Of a DNA stretch of 64,000 nt, positions 4,390-20,186 are shown piece by piece. The DNA comes from Terriglobia bacterium (GTDB lineage: Bacteria > Acidobacteriota > Terriglobia > Bryobacterales > UBA6623), in the NCBI GenBank assembly GCA_009841225.1, contig VXMF01000022.1, forward strand, positions 62,001 through 126,000, written 5' to 3'. The first letter of the stretch is position 1. Every line of letters begins with the position of its first letter. The position numbers were made by a program, and so were the translations under genes. Under the pieces are notes generated by a model. That model made no database searches and was not told the DNA's origin. It was given only the letters and a program-made list of their open reading frames with translations.

Positions 4390-7300
4390 CTAGAATTCGT
4401 AGCGCAGGAACAGCTCGATCCGCCTAGGGCCAACGATGGTACTGGTGATTCGTCCGAATTGCGTGGAGCCGATCGAGTGGGACCCTGAGTAGAACGACGG
4501 GTGGTTGAGGATGTTCTCGACGCGCGCTCCCGCCTTGACGGAGTGGTTCTCGGTGATTCTCGTCAGCTTGCTCACCGAGACGTCGAACACGAACGCGCTC
4601 GGGCCCGAGAACAGGCGTCGCTGCAGGTTCCCAACCTCGCCCGGTCCTGGATGGGAGAAGGCTTGGCCCGTGAACCTGTCGGCGCCATCAATCGCCACAC
4701 CGCTGTTATCGCGCGTGTTGATCGCGCCCTGCGAGATCATGAACGGCCCGTCATCGGTCATTCGGAATCGCACGATATGGTCGAGTTGGTCCTTGTTCAA
4801 TGATGACGTAGCCGTGTTCTCACCCGACCGGCCGCGGCGATTCAAAGTGCCTCGCCCCGACAATATGGACAGCGGGGATCCACTTTGCAGCGTGACGATG
4901 GAGGCCAGCGTCCAGCCTTGGAGCAAGCGGTTGGAGGAATTGAAGGGAAGCCTCCAAATGACGTTAGCGTTCATCACATGGGTCAAATCGAAGGTCGCGC
5001 GGGCACGCTCCAGTTCCGGTTGCTCCAGATCTAGGAAGGGCGCGAACCGGTGGGAGCCGACCCCGCTTGAATCGGTCAAGACCTTCGAGAACGAATAGTT
5101 GGCTTGGAACTGCACGCCGCTCGCCGCTCGCCGCCGCACCTCAAGTTGCAAGGCGTGATAGCTCGAATTGGAGTAGTTCGTCACCAAATCGCTTACGAAG
5201 GCGTTCTGGTTGCGCCGGAAGCTGACGTCAGTTCCCTCGGTCAGGCCGTTGAAGACATACAGTTCGGCCAAACCGCCTGGCTCGCCTTGGCGAATGTAGT
5301 TCTGCACGATCGGGAAGCGGATATACCCTCCCCCGATGATCCTCGGAAACACGATGAGCTCCTCGCTGCCCTCCAGAGCGGGGTTGTAGCTGGGGTCGAA
5401 GAAGCCAGTCGCAGCTTGCGCCAAGAAGCCGTTGTTGCGGGCTCGGATCACGTCGTCAAGGAATCCGTTCTCCTTGATGATGACTTGGTTGTAGTCGAAC
5501 GACCGGACCAGTTTGGTGCCCTTGTTGCCAACGTAGCGGGCCTCGACCACGGTCTTCCAGCCGATGTCGCGCTGTAAGCCGAAGTTCCACTGCTGCACGT
5601 ACGGCGAGCGGAAGTTCGGATCGATGGAGAACACCGCCGCGCCCGGATCAATCAGCTGATTCTGGCTCACTCGGCGCGGGACGGCGTATTCAGGAGGATC
5701 CACTGTGACCGGCCCGTCTGCGAGGAATGCATCAAGGTTCTGGAGCAAGTTCGAGCCCTGCAGGCCATCGTTGGCCGTAATGGCATTGTTGGCACTGCCA
5801 ATCGTCTCGTCATTGACGTAGTTGATGCTGTAGCCGGCGCGCAGGGATGTCTTGCCATCACCGAAAACATCCCAGGCAATGCCAATGTTCGGCGCGAAAT
5901 TGTTGCGATCCGGATTCCACAAGGGCCGCCCCACGCCGCCACCGGCAAAGTCCAGTTCGGCGTCGGACAGCAAGGTATCGATCAGGGTGCCGGGCCCGGG
6001 AACTGGCAGCAGCATGAGGCTGTCGCGCTCATCCAGTCTCCCGAAATACTCCCAGCGCAGGCCCAGATTCACGGTGAAGCGCGGCCGGATCTTGATGCTG
6101 TCCTGGCCGTACAACGCGAACGAATCGTAGCTATATCGCCTGCGCTGCTCTTGTCCGGGGACGAAACCAGATGTCCGGTCCCTGACATTGAACGACTGCG
6201 ATGCGGTCGAGACGATGCCTGCCAGCGAGGCAAGCAGGGACTGGGCGGTGCCCAGATCGCCGGAATCAATACCGCCTGGAAACAACGCTCCCGGGATTTG
6301 GTACTCGCTCTCCACCCCCAAGCCGATCCCCATTTCCGGCACGACACCGAAGTAGTTGAAGCTCTCGACCCGGACTTGCTGCGCGTCGAATCCGAACTGC
6401 ACCGAGTGCCGCCCGATCAGCGCCATGGCGTTGTCGCGGATGTTGAAGGTGTCGGTGTAGCGCCCTTGCGGAGCAAAGTTAACGTTTGGATTCGTATACA
6501 GCATCCCCGACACTTCATAGTCGGTCGGAGCTGCGCTGTTGCGAAAATCCCCCGGGGCGAGATTGAAGCCGAAGCGCGCCTCGTTGGTCCAGCGCGGTCC
6601 GAACGTGCTGCGCCATGCAGCCGAGAGAAACTGCGATTTGACGAAATCCTGCACCGGGGGCGCTTCGTAGTAGGCCACGCCGGTGTCGGGGCGGTCGTTG
6701 GTCTCGTCGCTGCGCTTGTACGTCACCGCCAGCGCTCCGCTAGCGCTCGCGTTCCAGTCGCCACGCGCTGTGATGGCTTTCCTGTCTGCGTTGTCGCGGG
6801 TCAAGAAGCGATACCCGGCCGTATTGAGCTGGCGCTCGGACGTGCTGTCTCCCCGGTCGAAGTTGTTGATTTCGCTGGGAGCCGGAATCTGGCTCAGGAG
6901 CTGCGCCGCCGCCGCGTCCGCCTCCAATCCCTGCAGCCTCAGCACGTTGACTTCGCGCAAGGTGTTGCTCAGGTCTAGGTATCTGAAGACTCCCTGGGCC
7001 GCAGTCGGAGTCAGGATCGTGGTGTTGACGAGGCTCTCGCGCCGGTCTGTCATCACCTCATAGTTAGCGAAGAAGAAGACGCGATTCTTGATCGCAGGAC
7101 CGCCCAGCGAGCCGCCGTACTGGTTGAAGCTCAGCTCCGGTTTCTCCAAGCCCTGCCGGTTGGAAAACCAGGGCGAGGCGGCGAGCTTGTGGCTGCGGTT
7201 GTGCCAGTAGGCGTTGCCGTGAAACTCCGGCCCGCCAGATCGTGTCGTGAAGTTCACCTGGGACGCGCCCATGCCGACCGCCGAAGATCCGTTCTGAGTC

Positions 7301-13903: not shown

Positions 13904-14053
13904 CGTCTGTCCGTGCGTGGCGAGAAACAGAGCATGGCCGGGCAGGACCGGCAGCGGCAGGGAAAGTGATGTGACGATCGAGTGCACGGGTGCGGGCACC
14001 TCGAGCTTCGCTCTTCCCAGAACGCCAGGGCACAAGCCTGCCCGGACAGCGAG

Positions 14054-14082
14054 TTGGATCGAACCGGAGAGGCGGCTATGCT
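14054..14082 (+). promoter_or_regulatory. Candidate sigma70 promoter of the ribokinase operon
   Basis: TTGGAT at 14054-14059 and TATGCT at 14077-14082 are separated by 17 bases, a good housekeeping spacing. The predicted transcript would start near 14089 and leave about 50 bases of leader before the ribokinase ATG at 14140. This is read by eye only. Confidence 0.4.
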
Positions 14083-14139
14083 ATCGGAGACAGTCCGAAG
14101 GGGCGGAGGGCCCCTGCGGCAGCTCGGAACAGAAGAGCC

Positions 14140-15078
14140 ATGAGCAAAAATCCCGAGATCGTTGTCATCGGAAGCCTGAATGCTGATCTCGTTCAGAATG
14201 TCGATCGCTTGCCGAGGCCGGGCGAGACCATTATCGGCGGCAACCTGCAAACGTTCAGCGGAGGCAAGGGTGCCAACCAAGCGTATGCCGCCGGTCGAAT
14301 GGGAGCTCAGGTGAGCATGGTCGGCCAACTGGGCAACGACGGCCTAGCGTCACTCCTGTTGCAGAGTCTGCAGTCCGCCGGTGTCCATACCGGGTCGGTG
14401 GGCGAGGCGGACTTGTCGACGGGTGCGGCGGTCATTCTAGTCTTGCCCGACGGGGAAAACCTGATCGTCGTCTCCCCGGGCGCGAACGCTACCGTAACGC
14501 CGGCACTGGCAGCGCAGAGACTGAGCGCCTTGCGCGAAGGCTCGTACTTGCTCTCGCAACTGGAAATCCCAATCGAATCGGTCGATGAATCGCTGGCGGT
14601 CGCCAAGGCTCGCGGGGCGACCACCATCCTGGATCCCGCGCCGGCCCGGGAAGTCTCTCCAGAGCTGTTGCGCAAGGTGGATTTCCTCACCCCGAACGAA
14701 ACGGAAACGCAGACTCTGTTGGGGGAGCCGGGATTGAAGATGGAGAGCGATGCTGACTTGGAACTCGCAGCGAAAGCAATCCTGGCCCTCGGCCCTCGGT
14801 CGGTTGTCCTGAAGCTCGGGGCGCGAGGCTGTATGATTGCGAGCGCCGAGGGGAGCCATCGCGTTCCCGGATTCAAGGTGTCTGCTGTTGACACAACTGC
14901 GGCCGGCGACGTATTTAACGGCGCCTTCGCCACGGCCCTGGCTGAGGGCCGGAGCGTGCCCGAGGCAGCCAGATTCGCGAACGCCGCGGCGGCACTGTCC
15001 GTCACACGACCCGGCGCGCAGAACTCGGTCCCGTCGAGGCAGGAAGCGGAGCGCTTCCTGCGCGATGTCGAGAATTGA
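14140..15078 (+). CDS. rbsK: Ribokinase (PfkB family)
   Basis: This 312-residue sugar kinase phosphorylates D-ribose to ribose 5-phosphate. The N-terminal signature is VVIGSLNADLVQNVDRLPRP, followed by FSGGKGANQAYAAGRMGA, the PfkB signature 1 typical of ribokinase. The C-terminal active-site motif is VDTTAAGDVFNGAFATAL, with the catalytic base Asp in AAGD. The frame is open 50 codons further upstream, but ATG 14140 starts the conserved fold. It is first in an operon with a sugar transporter 30 bases downstream and a secreted ADP-ribosylglycohydrolase after that, which supports ribose as substrate. Closely related PfkB kinases for other pentoses or nucleosides are possible. Confidence 0.92.
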   Translation: MSKNPEIVVIGSLNADLVQNVDRLPRPGETIIGGNLQTFSGGKGANQAYAAGRMGAQVSMVGQLGNDGLASLLLQSLQSAGVHTGSVGEADLSTGAAVILVLPDGENLIVVSPGANATVTPALAAQRLSALREGSYLLSQLEIPIESVDESLAVAKARGATTILDPAPAREVSPELLRKVDFLTPNETETQTLLGEPGLKMESDADLELAAKAILALGPRSVVLKLGARGCMIASAEGSHRVPGFKVSAVDTTAAGDVFNGAFATALAEGRSVPEAARFANAAAALSVTRPGAQNSVPSRQEAERFLRDVEN

Positions 15079-15108
15079 ATCGGCTGAGCGGAACCCAAGG
15101 AGGAAGTA

Positions 15109-16104
15109 ATGTTTGTCGTCGAGAGCCTGGGACTGGCGATTTTCCTGTGCATCATCACCATGATGGGCTGGGGGTCGTGGGCCAACACGCAAAAGCTGGC
15201 CGGCAAGGAAGATTGGCCGTTCGAACTCTACTACTGGGACTATGCGATCGGCGTGTTCCTTACAGGCATCCTGTTCGCCCTCACGCTCGGCAGCTTCGGG
15301 AACGTCGGCATGGGTGCGGCGGCCAATCTCGGCCAAGCGGCCGGTGTGCCGATCAGCGACGCGATGCTGAGTGGGGCGCTGTTCAACGTCGCGAACATCC
15401 TCCTGGTCGTGGCGATCGACGCCGCCGGAATGTCGCTCGCTTTCCCGGTCGGCGTCGGGCTGGCCCTCGTGATCGGCACCGTGCGCAGCTATATGCAAGC
15501 TCCCAAGGGGGATCCGACCCTCCTGTTCGCCGGGGTCGCGCTGATCGTCGTTGCGATGATCATGTCGGCGCTCGCATACAGCAAGCTCCCCCCGGTGGCA
15601 GGCAGGCGCCTTGGGCGAGGCCTGCTATACGCAGTCCTTGCCGGCTGCCTGATGGGGTCGTTCTACCCGATGCTGGTCCGGGCTGTCTCGCCGGATTTCA
15701 GCTCGGGCGCTATCGAGGCCGGCTTTCTGACCCCGTACACCGCCTTGTTCTATTTCGGAATCGGTCTCCTGCTGAGCAACTTCGTCGTGAACACGATCTT
15801 CATGAAGGCCGGCGGGAAGACCTACGGGCGTTACTTTGGCGGAGGGCCCAAGCTGCATTCGCTGGGGATCCTGGGAGGAATGATCTGGATGGTGGCCCTG
15901 GGCCTGAACGTGATCGCCTCGGGCGTGGCGGGGCCCGCCATTTCTTACGCTCTGGGCCAAGGCGCTACCTTGGTGGCGGCCATCTGGGGGGTCTTCATCT
16001 GGAAGGAGTTCAAGGCCGCCCCTGCTAGCGCCTACCCGTTCATCGTGCTGATGTTCCTCGGGTACACGAACGGTCTGGCATTGATCGGGGTCGCGACTCT
16101 ATAG
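15109..16104 (+). CDS. GRP/RhaT-like sugar permease (probable ribose or pentose uptake)
   Basis: The 331-residue protein has about ten predicted membrane helices and resembles the drug/metabolite-transporter superfamily GRP and RhaT-type sugar carriers. The start is MFVVESLGLAIFLCIITMMG, and it has paired GSF/GG-rich helices and a C-terminal VAAIWGVFIWKEF, which resembles the last-helix pattern of GRP proteins. A strong AAGGAGG lies a few bases before the ATG. It sits between ribokinase and the secreted ADP-ribosylglycohydrolase with short gaps (30 and 47 bases), so I infer that it imports the sugar released outside the cytoplasm. The exact substrate is not visible in the sequence. Confidence 0.78.
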   Translation: MFVVESLGLAIFLCIITMMGWGSWANTQKLAGKEDWPFELYYWDYAIGVFLTGILFALTLGSFGNVGMGAAANLGQAAGVPISDAMLSGALFNVANILLVVAIDAAGMSLAFPVGVGLALVIGTVRSYMQAPKGDPTLLFAGVALIVVAMIMSALAYSKLPPVAGRRLGRGLLYAVLAGCLMGSFYPMLVRAVSPDFSSGAIEAGFLTPYTALFYFGIGLLLSNFVVNTIFMKAGGKTYGRYFGGGPKLHSLGILGGMIWMVALGLNVIASGVAGPAISYALGQGATLVAAIWGVFIWKEFKAAPASAYPFIVLMFLGYTNGLALIGVATL

Positions 16105-16151
16105 GCAATCGAGGCGGCCGGGCCTGCAAGGAGCGGGGAAGAGGAGTCTGC

Positions 16152-17423
16152 ATGAAACGAGCAAACTACTGGGTGATGGTTGCGGTGCTGGCGGTGTCGT
16201 CGGCAACGCTCGTCGGCGGTGCCGACGCGAAGGAACGGGTCATCAGCGATGCAGAGCTGATCGACAAGCTGTCGGGATTCTGGATCGGGCAGCTGCTTGG
16301 CAACTACATCGGCTTTCCGTTCGAGAACAACTATGTCGAGGAGTCGATCCCGGTCCTGGTCGACCGGGTATACACCGCCGACTACGACGGCGATCCGGAA
16401 CTGAAGATCAACACGAAGGACCGCAGGGGCTACATCCCGATCATGGCGCACGCATTGCGCGGCGCTTTCAGCGACGACGACACAGACATCGAGTTCGTCA
16501 CGCTGCACGCGGTCGAGAAATACGGTCTCGACATCACGTATCCAGAGATCACCCAGATGTGGAAGACCCACATCAACGACTTCATCTGGGTCGCGAACCG
16601 GGAAGCCCGCAACTTGATGGACCAAGGATTGGTTGCTCCCGACACGGGACGCAAGCAGAACAACAAGCACTGGTTCCAGATCGATCCCCAGCTAGTCAAC
16701 GAAATCTGGAGCGCCTTCTATCCCGGCATGACCGAACACGCCGCGCGGCGCGCGCTGTGGGGAGCCCGCATTACCAATGACGATTGGGGCACGCACCCGA
16801 CGATTGCATACGGGGCGATGATCAGCGCTGCGTTCTTCGAGAAGGACGTGCGCGAGTTGGTCAAGCTCGCGATCAAGGCTGTTCCGAACGAGGGGCCTTT
16901 CGCGGAAGGCATTCGCGACGTCGTCAAATGGCATTCCGAAAACAGCGACTGGCGTGACACGCGGGACCAAATCCACGGCAAGTACTACGCCTACAAGAAG
17001 GGGGCTTACGAGGCTCCGGTAAGTGTCGTTTCCTCCCTCGCCAACGGGTTGACCGGAATCATGGCCGTTCTTTACGGCGAAGGGGACTACATGAAGACAG
17101 TAGGCATCGCAACGTCCGCGGGGTACGACTGCGACAACCAGGCGGCAACCGCCGGCGGGCTGATCGGCGTGCTCAACGGCTTGAGCGGCATGGGAGACGC
17201 GGCCGTGGAGCAGACCAAGAACCTCCCGGCTTGGGGAGAGTGGGACATGCCGTTCAACGACCAGTACGTCAACATCTCACGCGACGAGATCCGGCTCCGC
17301 ACCCCGATCAGCGAGATCGTCGAGCGGATCGCTGCTGTCGCCAAGACCGCAATTCTCGAAAACGGCGGTCGCATGGAGGTGCGCGACGGGGAGACCGTGT
17401 ACGTCGTGAATTCCGATTTCTGA
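16152..17423 (+). CDS. Secreted ADP-ribosylglycohydrolase (ARH/DraG-like fold)
   Basis: A 423-residue member of the ADP-ribosylglycohydrolase family. A clear signal peptide (residues 1-26, ending GADA before KERV) places it in the periplasm or outside, which is unusual for a family best known from the cytoplasm. The metal-binding acidic cluster is at about residues 108-114 (SDDDTDIEF), and a second one, YDCDNQAATAGG, lies at about 325-336; both match the dinuclear Mg site of the family. It follows ribokinase and a sugar permease in one operon. Known relatives cleave ADP-ribosyl bonds on proteins or nucleotides. A role in releasing ribose or ADP-ribose for uptake is inference. Confidence 0.85.
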   Translation: MKRANYWVMVAVLAVSSATLVGGADAKERVISDAELIDKLSGFWIGQLLGNYIGFPFENNYVEESIPVLVDRVYTADYDGDPELKINTKDRRGYIPIMAHALRGAFSDDDTDIEFVTLHAVEKYGLDITYPEITQMWKTHINDFIWVANREARNLMDQGLVAPDTGRKQNNKHWFQIDPQLVNEIWSAFYPGMTEHAARRALWGARITNDDWGTHPTIAYGAMISAAFFEKDVRELVKLAIKAVPNEGPFAEGIRDVVKWHSENSDWRDTRDQIHGKYYAYKKGAYEAPVSVVSSLANGLTGIMAVLYGEGDYMKTVGIATSAGYDCDNQAATAGGLIGVLNGLSGMGDAAVEQTKNLPAWGEWDMPFNDQYVNISRDEIRLRTPISEIVERIAAVAKTAILENGGRMEVRDGETVYVVNSDF

Positions 17424-19131: not shown

Positions 19132-19545
19132 TCAGCACTCGACGACCTGCACGTGGCCGTGAGAGCCGTACTCAAGTATCTTGGCGTCACGCGTCACGAG
19201 CACGTATCCAGAGGCACGCGCCGTGGCGATGATGATGCGATCGGCGGGATCGGTTGGCGGTGAGCCCGGCAGTTTGGTCGACGCGATCAGCACGGATGGC
19301 GGCATCGCGGCCAGCATTACGGAGGGCAACTCGCAATAGCGCTCGAACCAGTCGTCGGGCTCGAGCGCAAGTGCGACCTTGCCCTTCGCGACGAGCATCG
19401 CGATCTCCCACGCCGTAATGGGAGAGACGCAGAGACTCGATCCGCGCCGATAGGCCTCTTGCAGTTCGGTCGCCGCGGGCTCGCGCAGTGGATCCTTGTG
19501 GGCGGTCCACAAGACGGCGCACGTATCGAGCAGGAAGTCCGTCAC
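19132..19545 (-). CDS. PIN-domain ribonuclease toxin, VapC-like
   Basis: A 137-residue PIN-domain protein, the usual VapC length. The acidic active-site residues are in place: D7 in FLLDTCA, E47 in TAWEIAML, D99 and D102 in DPADRIIIATA, and D120 in VTRDAKI. VapC toxins are Mg-dependent RNases that cut tRNA or rRNA. The gene lies 6 bases downstream of the antitoxin candidate on the same strand, the normal antitoxin-first order. The start codon is the ATG at 19545. Confidence 0.88.
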   Translation of the reverse strand: MTDFLLDTCAVLWTAHKDPLREPAATELQEAYRRGSSLCVSPITAWEIAMLVAKGKVALALEPDDWFERYCELPSVMLAAMPPSVLIASTKLPGSPPTDPADRIIIATARASGYVLVTRDAKILEYGSHGHVQVVEC

Positions 19546-19551
19546 TTGGCG

Positions 19552-19956
19552 TTAGCGTGCAACGTTCCATTCTTCGTCGATCGGATCCGACAGATTCGTA
19601 CCGGCCAAGATCGTCACCGTGTCCTTGAGAGAGCCCAGAGCGTCAACGAACGAGCCGGTTCGCTGGGCCAGTGACGTCTCGCTGTCTGCGCCTGGAACCG
19701 GCACGCTTTGGACGGCCTTGCGGAAGACGAGCTTTTGGTGCTTCATGTCAACTTTCTCTGTCTTGTATCCCGCCTTCAGCCAAGCCTTCGTCATAACCCA
19801 ATTGCCAGGGTTGTTGGACCACATCGTGCGGTGCCTACGAGCCGCAGGCGGCAATCGAACGCCGATAACACGCTCAATCTGGTCAAAGGTCATGGGCAAT
19901 CGCGGACGTCCCGAATCACGCAGGAGAGATTCAAGCGGGGAATACTTGCTATTCAT
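19552..19956 (-). CDS. Putative antitoxin with DUF7662-like DNA-binding N-terminus
   Basis: The 134-residue product is just upstream of the PIN toxin. Residues 2 to about 80 (KYSPLESLLRDSG, FDQIERVIGVRLPPAARR, WSNNPGNWVMTKAWLKAGY) match the pattern I know as DUF7662, a small domain often found alone or fused in bacteria. The last 25 residues (TNLSDPIDEEWNVAR) look like the extended tail by which antitoxins wrap a PIN partner. ATG 19956 is chosen because GGAGG lies 10 bases upstream; the frame is open 11 codons further. It is not an AbrB, RHH, Phd or HTH antitoxin in any way I can see. The assignment rests mainly on gene order. Confidence 0.65.
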   Translation of the reverse strand: MNSKYSPLESLLRDSGRPRLPMTFDQIERVIGVRLPPAARRHRTMWSNNPGNWVMTKAWLKAGYKTEKVDMKHQKLVFRKAVQSVPVPGADSETSLAQRTGSFVDALGSLKDTVTILAGTNLSDPIDEEWNVAR

Positions 19957-20186
19957 ATCGATGTGTACCTCCGCGAGCTCCAACCGCACTGCCCAAGTCG
20001 GCTAGTGGCCACGCTCCGTTACGACCCTGGGGCATAGCATCCGGTTCGTCGATACTCAGTGAAAACACACTCATGAGCCTCTTAGATATATTACAAGAGG
20101 CCAGAATCCGGCGCAACCGGGCCCGCTCGAGCGCGGCGCGGCTTGTCGCTGCCTTCAGACGCCGGCCTGCGGGCGGTTGCCGGGCA

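Follow-up and report, generated by a model that had tools for sequence, protein, structure and literature searches.

A putative rus-like ribose-scavenging operon with a predicted secreted ADP-ribosylglycohydrolase-fold enzyme in a Terriglobia bacterium

The stretch of 64,000 nucleotides analysed here (contig VXMF01000022.1 of a Terriglobia bacterium; hereafter the window) carries a putative operon in which a ribokinase and a sugar permease are joined to a protein with a signal peptide and the predicted fold of the ADP-ribosylglycohydrolases (ARH). Its arrangement recalls the rus locus of Bacteroides thetaiotaomicron. The three open reading frames (ORFs) are located on one strand and are separated by gaps of 30 and 47 bases, as given in a preliminary description of this DNA:

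14140 to 15078, plus strand: ribokinase gene (RbsK/PfkB family), 312 amino acids
15109 to 16104, plus strand: permease gene of the GRP/ureide-permease type (DMT), predicted pentose (ribose) permease, 331 amino acids
16152 to 17423, plus strand: gene for a secreted ARH-fold protein (PF03747), predicted periplasmic riboside hydrolase, 423 amino acids

The sequence argues strongly for a ribokinase as the first product. It scores 330.8 bits against TIGR02152 (equivalog cut-off 299.65), aligns with E. coli RbsK over the full length, contains the NAD, GGKGANQ, LxQLE, and AAGD motifs, and is the sole protein of the genome above this cut-off. The permease, also present once in the genome, matches PF07168 (ureide permease) with 48.5 bits (cut-off 27) and comprises 10 hydrophobic segments, consistent with ten transmembrane helices. 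RhaT and Sugar_transport models match only below their cut-offs, and the RhaT/GlcU sugar-proton symporter model TIGR00776 yields 20.9 (cut-off 319.6). Annotated homologues are termed "GRP family sugar transporter" and are located beside rbsK. Family and gene context suggest that the permease carries a pentose, presumably ribose.

The third product belongs to PF03747 (103 bits, E=2e-29, cut-off 26.2). A direct phmmer search against the PDB gave no useful match, and the evidence for its fold is an AlphaFold2 model (mean pLDDT 78.6), which aligns with ARH3 (6g1q) over 303 residues at Z 28.7 and a root-mean-square deviation of 3.3. The following features were located within the gene:

16152 to 16229, plus strand: signal peptide of 26 amino acids, MKRANYWVMVAVLAVSSATLVGGADA, followed by KE (cleavage ADA/KE), of Sec/SPI type by inspection
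16323 to 16325, plus strand: Glu58, at the alignment position of the catalytic/metal Glu in ARH enzymes and invariant in A3
16473 to 16487, plus strand: acidic cluster 1, D108-D109-D110-T111-D112
16680 to 16709, plus strand: IDPQLVNEIW, replacing the canonical GNGxxMR pyrophosphate loop (MAFFT alignment, motif count)
16770 to 16790, plus strand: ITNDDWG, replacing the canonical TH motif with its pyrophosphate-binding His (aligned columns)
17127 to 17141, plus strand: acidic cluster 2, D326-C-D328-N329-Q330

The signal peptide and the two acidic clusters, already recognized in the preliminary description, are conserved in orthologues. E58, D109, D110, D326, and D328 are invariant, and thus both metal clusters and the catalytic Glu are in place. 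In ARH1 and ARH3, the di-metal site holds the distal ribose, and the pyrophosphate of ADP-ribose is contacted by two absolutely conserved residues, a Gly in the GNGxxMR loop and a His in the TH motif (PMC6309922). It is these latter elements that the window enzyme lacks.

This pattern extends well beyond a single protein. In a tree of 73 ARH sequences, taking in window-type, lipoprotein-type, and canonical members, the first two types and related ARH proteins form one clade of 47 with support 1.0. Its members from rus-like loci constitute the window-type and lipoprotein-type subclades, each including members from Acidobacteriota and Bacteroidota. A hydrophobic N-terminal export segment was found in all 36 members of these two subclades; canonical members that start at the domain have no hydrophobic N-terminus. 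The catalytic Glu is retained in both subclades, as are the four Asp of the metal clusters. The pyrophosphate-contacting Gly and His of ARH1, ARH3, and DraG are missing from both: the GNGxxMR loop occurs in none of 18 window-type and none of 18 lipoprotein-type members, compared with 21 of 26 canonical ones, and no TH aligns in either subclade.

Sought in other genomes, the gene order turned out to be kept in part of the genus and to reappear in Bacteroidota. Relative G005 has all three genes at the corresponding chromosomal site. At this site in G010, ribokinase and permease are followed by a lipoprotein ARH paralogue that replaces the window-type ARH, while in G003, G001, and G006 a lipoprotein-ARH remnant lies upstream of the ribokinase-permease pair. 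G007 and G004, as well as G001 at a second locus, display a more extensive cluster in which ARH genes occur on either side. In this second G001 cluster (L171:9493-9738, L003:3947-4282), only a fragment of the ribokinase gene (45% identity over residues 144-227) is left, flanked by ARH and permease genes that are both intact; at its window-like site, G001 still has a complete ribokinase-permease pair. In one relative, an ORF inserted at 5710-6972 interrupts the window-type ARH gene (L010:5037-7762). The window itself appears to hold a trace of the lipoprotein type:

13975 to 14108, plus strand: probable 3'-terminal remnant of a lipoprotein-type ARH gene, by nucleotide similarity to L165 and L164

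This segment is 74% identical over 136 bases to the remnant in L165 and 80% over 61 bases to L164. The L165 remnant aligns in tblastn with residues 436-523 of ADPRGH_lipo; a direct protein-level match of the window segment to a lipoprotein ARH was not found. The segment is probably the decayed tail of an ancestral lipoprotein-type ARH gene upstream of the ribokinase. From this tail and the arrangements within the genus, we infer that the ancestral unit probably consisted of a lipoprotein ARH, ribokinase, permease, and then one or two secreted ARHs, of which the window would be a reduced version.

Beyond the genus, the permease is carried by 29 of 297 Acidobacteriota genomes and is rare in Planctomycetota (3 of 199). 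The 30 non-genus loci, from Acidobacteriota plus two from the Planctomycetota search, comprise 24 with a ribokinase at most 1.1 kb from the permease, six with adjacent secreted nucleoside hydrolases (PF01156), and three with a secreted ARH. One of these three, in a Phycisphaerae metagenome-assembled genome, shows the order ARH-permease-ribokinase. In Bacteroidota, whose loci were taken from plasmid records alone, Flammeovirga presents rbsK-permease-ARH, exactly the window order, adjoining SusC/D; Parabacteroides distasonis has rbsK-ARH-nucleoside hydrolase-permease and Spirosoma rbsK-ARH-permease. Gene order and linkage are far beyond what chance would produce. Judged by gene content, the hydrolase slot is exchangeable, as it is taken in relatives by a lipoprotein ARH paralogue or by secreted nucleoside hydrolases.

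Two side observations were made among these loci. In several Acidobacteriota (L089, L091, L092, L093, and L095), the permease/ribokinase genes are followed by a conserved protein of 725-742 amino acids with a C-terminal FGE-sulfatase domain; such loci, often with a TonB-type barrel and a LacI regulator, are possibly another rus-like variant. The record NZ_CP141089.1, filed as an E. coli plasmid, measures 4.94 Mb with 67 annotated features and is probably a mislabelled chromosome.

We read the operon as a rus-like ribose-scavenging system composed of a periplasmic riboside hydrolase, a ribose permease, and a ribokinase, and assign this reading a probability of roughly 0.7. The ARH-fold protein would be exported to the periplasm, as its signal peptide predicts. 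There, the di-metal site would grip a terminal ribofuranose and hydrolyse its glycosidic bond; the product would be free ribose split from a riboside, not ADP-ribose split from a protein. The DMT/GRP permease, by family and context, would move ribose over the inner membrane, and the ribokinase would convert it to ribose-5-phosphate for the pentose-phosphate pathway. Location, activity, transport substrate, and metabolic flux are all predictions from sequence. Riboside hydrolysis is suggested because the catalytic residues are kept, the pyrophosphate-binding elements are lost, and the gene context fits: an enzyme that presumably still grips the terminal ribose and no longer needs ADP suits the position that nucleoside hydrolases take in other loci. 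The idea of the preliminary description that secreted hydrolase, pentose import, and ribokinase form one module, now seen conserved in part of the genus and in Bacteroidota, is borne out. Its proposed substrates, ADP-ribose, NAD, or ADP-ribosylated proteins, fare worse, with GNGxxMR and TH gone from the whole secreted clade, and ADP-ribose or NAD appears less likely.

Several observations weigh against riboside hydrolysis within one such module. The ARH gene is missing downstream of ribokinase and permease in G003, G001, and G006, the contig of G001 stopping just after the permease. Because several genus members thus keep the pair without a following ARH gene, the enzyme is, as far as these genomes indicate, not strictly required. 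Two Thr metal ligands are replaced in the window enzyme (D108, N329), which makes its catalytic competence less than certain. That the loop is lost is a conclusion from a MAFFT alignment and a motif search; the strict GNGxxMR pattern is also missing from five of the 26 canonical-type members, and in an hhalign comparison of the secreted and canonical profiles, the second acidic cluster alone was aligned. Nucleosides, moreover, are beta-linked. Characterised ARH1 and ARH3 cleave only alpha-linked ribose (PMC6309922), and because of this restriction alpha-ribosides are as plausible substrates as nucleosides. A bolder proposal, which we hold tentatively and at somewhat less than even odds, is that the secreted PF03747 clade represents an unrecognised family of di-metal ribosidases freeing ribose from alpha-ribosides in rus-like operons of at least three phyla. 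Candidate substrates would include ribosyl-adenosine derived from poly(ADP-ribose) and the ribosyl-amino acids that remain upon dephosphorylation of ADP-ribosylated proteins.

The alternative that survives best is a narrower form of the riboside-hydrolase reading, in which the enzyme is a secreted nucleosidase for ordinary beta-ribonucleosides and a stand-in for a secreted nucleoside hydrolase. PF01156 proteins fill the same slot in other Acidobacteriota, and ARH and nucleoside hydrolase occur together in the Parabacteroides locus. We nevertheless regard this alternative as unlikely, given the strict alpha-specificity of ARH1 and ARH3; furthermore, the coexistence in Parabacteroides suggests different substrates, and the source genome has two PF01156 genes of its own, both away from the operon.

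A genuine secreted ADP-ribosyl hydrolase, acting on extracellular host or bacterial ADP-ribosylated material and leaving it to other enzymes to dephosphorylate and split ADP-ribose to ribose, would be in line with the ARH fold, with ARH3 as best match, and with the retained acidic motifs and catalytic Glu. It is an improbable solution, however, as GNGxxMR and TH are gone from every window-type and lipoprotein-type member, and no pyrophosphatase, Nudix protein, or phosphatase was recognised among the annotated or scanned cluster genes.

More doubtful still is the salvage of another pentose, such as 5-deoxyribose or a ribose-containing glycan unit, with the ARH protein as an accessory. The E. 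coli permease homologue, 49-52% identical, closes the mtnK-mtnA-ald2 operon for 5-deoxyribose, and two homologues from Acidobacteriota are accompanied by an FGGY kinase and a fucose-isomerase-like protein. Yet the permease is found with ribokinase far more often than with any other partner, and the strong equivalog match in the window denotes an enzyme that needs the 5-hydroxyl absent from 5-deoxyribose. Finally, a mere accident of neighbouring genes, for which the missing ARH gene in G003, G001, and G006 might be quoted, is hardly credible and was rejected, since the association recurs in three phyla and two ARH subclades, namely in Flammeovirga, Parabacteroides, Spirosoma, genus relatives, and non-genus loci.

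Two signals for expression of the operon were noted:

14054 to 14082, plus strand: weak promoter-like TTGGAT-N17-TATGCT, with 7 of 12 consensus positions, below the scan threshold
15097 to 15105, plus strand: Shine-Dalgarno-like AAGGAGGAA before the permease gene, read from the sequence

A Shine-Dalgarno-like stretch precedes the ARH gene as well. The preliminary description had claimed one clear promoter. A sigma-70 consensus scan gave no match (0.7 expected by chance), and what stands of the claim is the weaker element: TATGCT is kept in all five aligned syntenic relatives and TTGG in four of them, so that it is likely a promoter candidate, weak by consensus but conserved. Downstream of the operon, window positions 19132-19989 encode a PIN-like small protein and a second small ORF, by eye a toxin-antitoxin pair.

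The source genome assembly (5.74 Mb) contains nine PF03747 genes. A second copy of the window enzyme, 86% identical, is located on contig C34, close to two further secreted ARH genes and upstream of DUF1501/DUF1549-DUF1553 genes. On this contig (L023:1-20000), the three secreted ARH genes have DUF1501/PSD1-PSCyt genes and genes for secreted FG-GAP/TPR proteins as neighbours; L003, L005, and L006 show this arrangement too. A canonical PF03747 protein on contig C18 near 298925 (L020:5326-6807) has an N-terminal phosphatase-like region, which matches protein-tyrosine/dual-specificity phosphatases in the PDB, and constitutes a phosphatase-ARH fusion. The C-terminal domain of the lipoprotein ARH paralogue matches CBM_6 below threshold (20.5 versus 28.9 bits; model pLDDT 55).

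Should the riboside-hydrolase reading hold, rus-like ribose scavenging would extend from Bacteroidota to Acidobacteriota and Planctomycetota, and a marine-type acidobacterium probably cuts ribose off larger molecules beyond its inner membrane, imports it, and feeds on it. Riboside hydrolysis would then be proposed for an extensive secreted branch of a family whose members are annotated throughout as reversing protein ADP-ribosylation, a branch for which we found no published example of a tested activity. Many annotations as "secreted ADP-ribosylglycohydrolase" would mislead, and bacteria would possess an enzyme specialised for ribosides that may be out of reach of nucleoside hydrolases.

Among known systems, ARH3 and DraG share with the window enzyme the fold, the di-metal acidic motifs, and the catalytic Glu; they differ in that the window enzyme is predicted to be secreted, has lost the pyrophosphate loop and His, and has its Thr metal ligands replaced. 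The dihydroxyacetone-phosphate shunt operon of E. coli for 5-deoxyribose (PMC12632272) is likewise a pentose-salvage operon and contains the 49-52% identical transporter, but has another kinase, an aldolase, and no ARH protein. E. coli yegTUV, repressed by GgaR/YegW, unites a putative nucleoside symporter, a putative ADP-ribosylglycohydrolase, and a PfkB kinase (PMC10819704), the same triad of transporter, PF03747 protein, and kinase as in the window. However, YegT is an MFS-type transporter, and YegU lacks a signal peptide and has retained NGAAMR and TH, in contrast to the PF07168 permease and the signal peptide-bearing enzyme of the window. Thus, yegTUV is a parallel, distinct cytoplasmic triad.

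The closest likeness is to rus, a ribose-utilization system of gut bacteria. Literature searches on ADPRGH with ribokinase and on ADPRGH with polysaccharide utilization loci did not return an account of the present pathway, and the preliminary description knew of none of this form; rus is one. ARH genes in rus-like loci were seen directly in Parabacteroides and Flammeovirga, and some rus loci proper are reportedly furnished with ADP-ribosylglycohydrolases. According to two reports (PMC12596196, PMC13011590), the B. thetaiotaomicron locus BT2803-2809 comprises ribokinases, a nucleoside hydrolase, and the DMT-type permease RusT, proposed as importer of free ribose (citing Glowacki et al. 2020). 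Both systems combine in one locus a ribokinase, a DMT-type permease, and a hydrolase for ribose-containing compounds, the one in the window being secreted by prediction. In contrast to rus, no SusC/SusD, nucleoside hydrolase, or regulator was seen beside the window operon, and its sole hydrolase is the ARH-fold protein. Because the module works like rus, the type of pathway is already known; new are its ARH-only form in Acidobacteriota and the proposed reading of the secreted ARH clade as riboside hydrolases.

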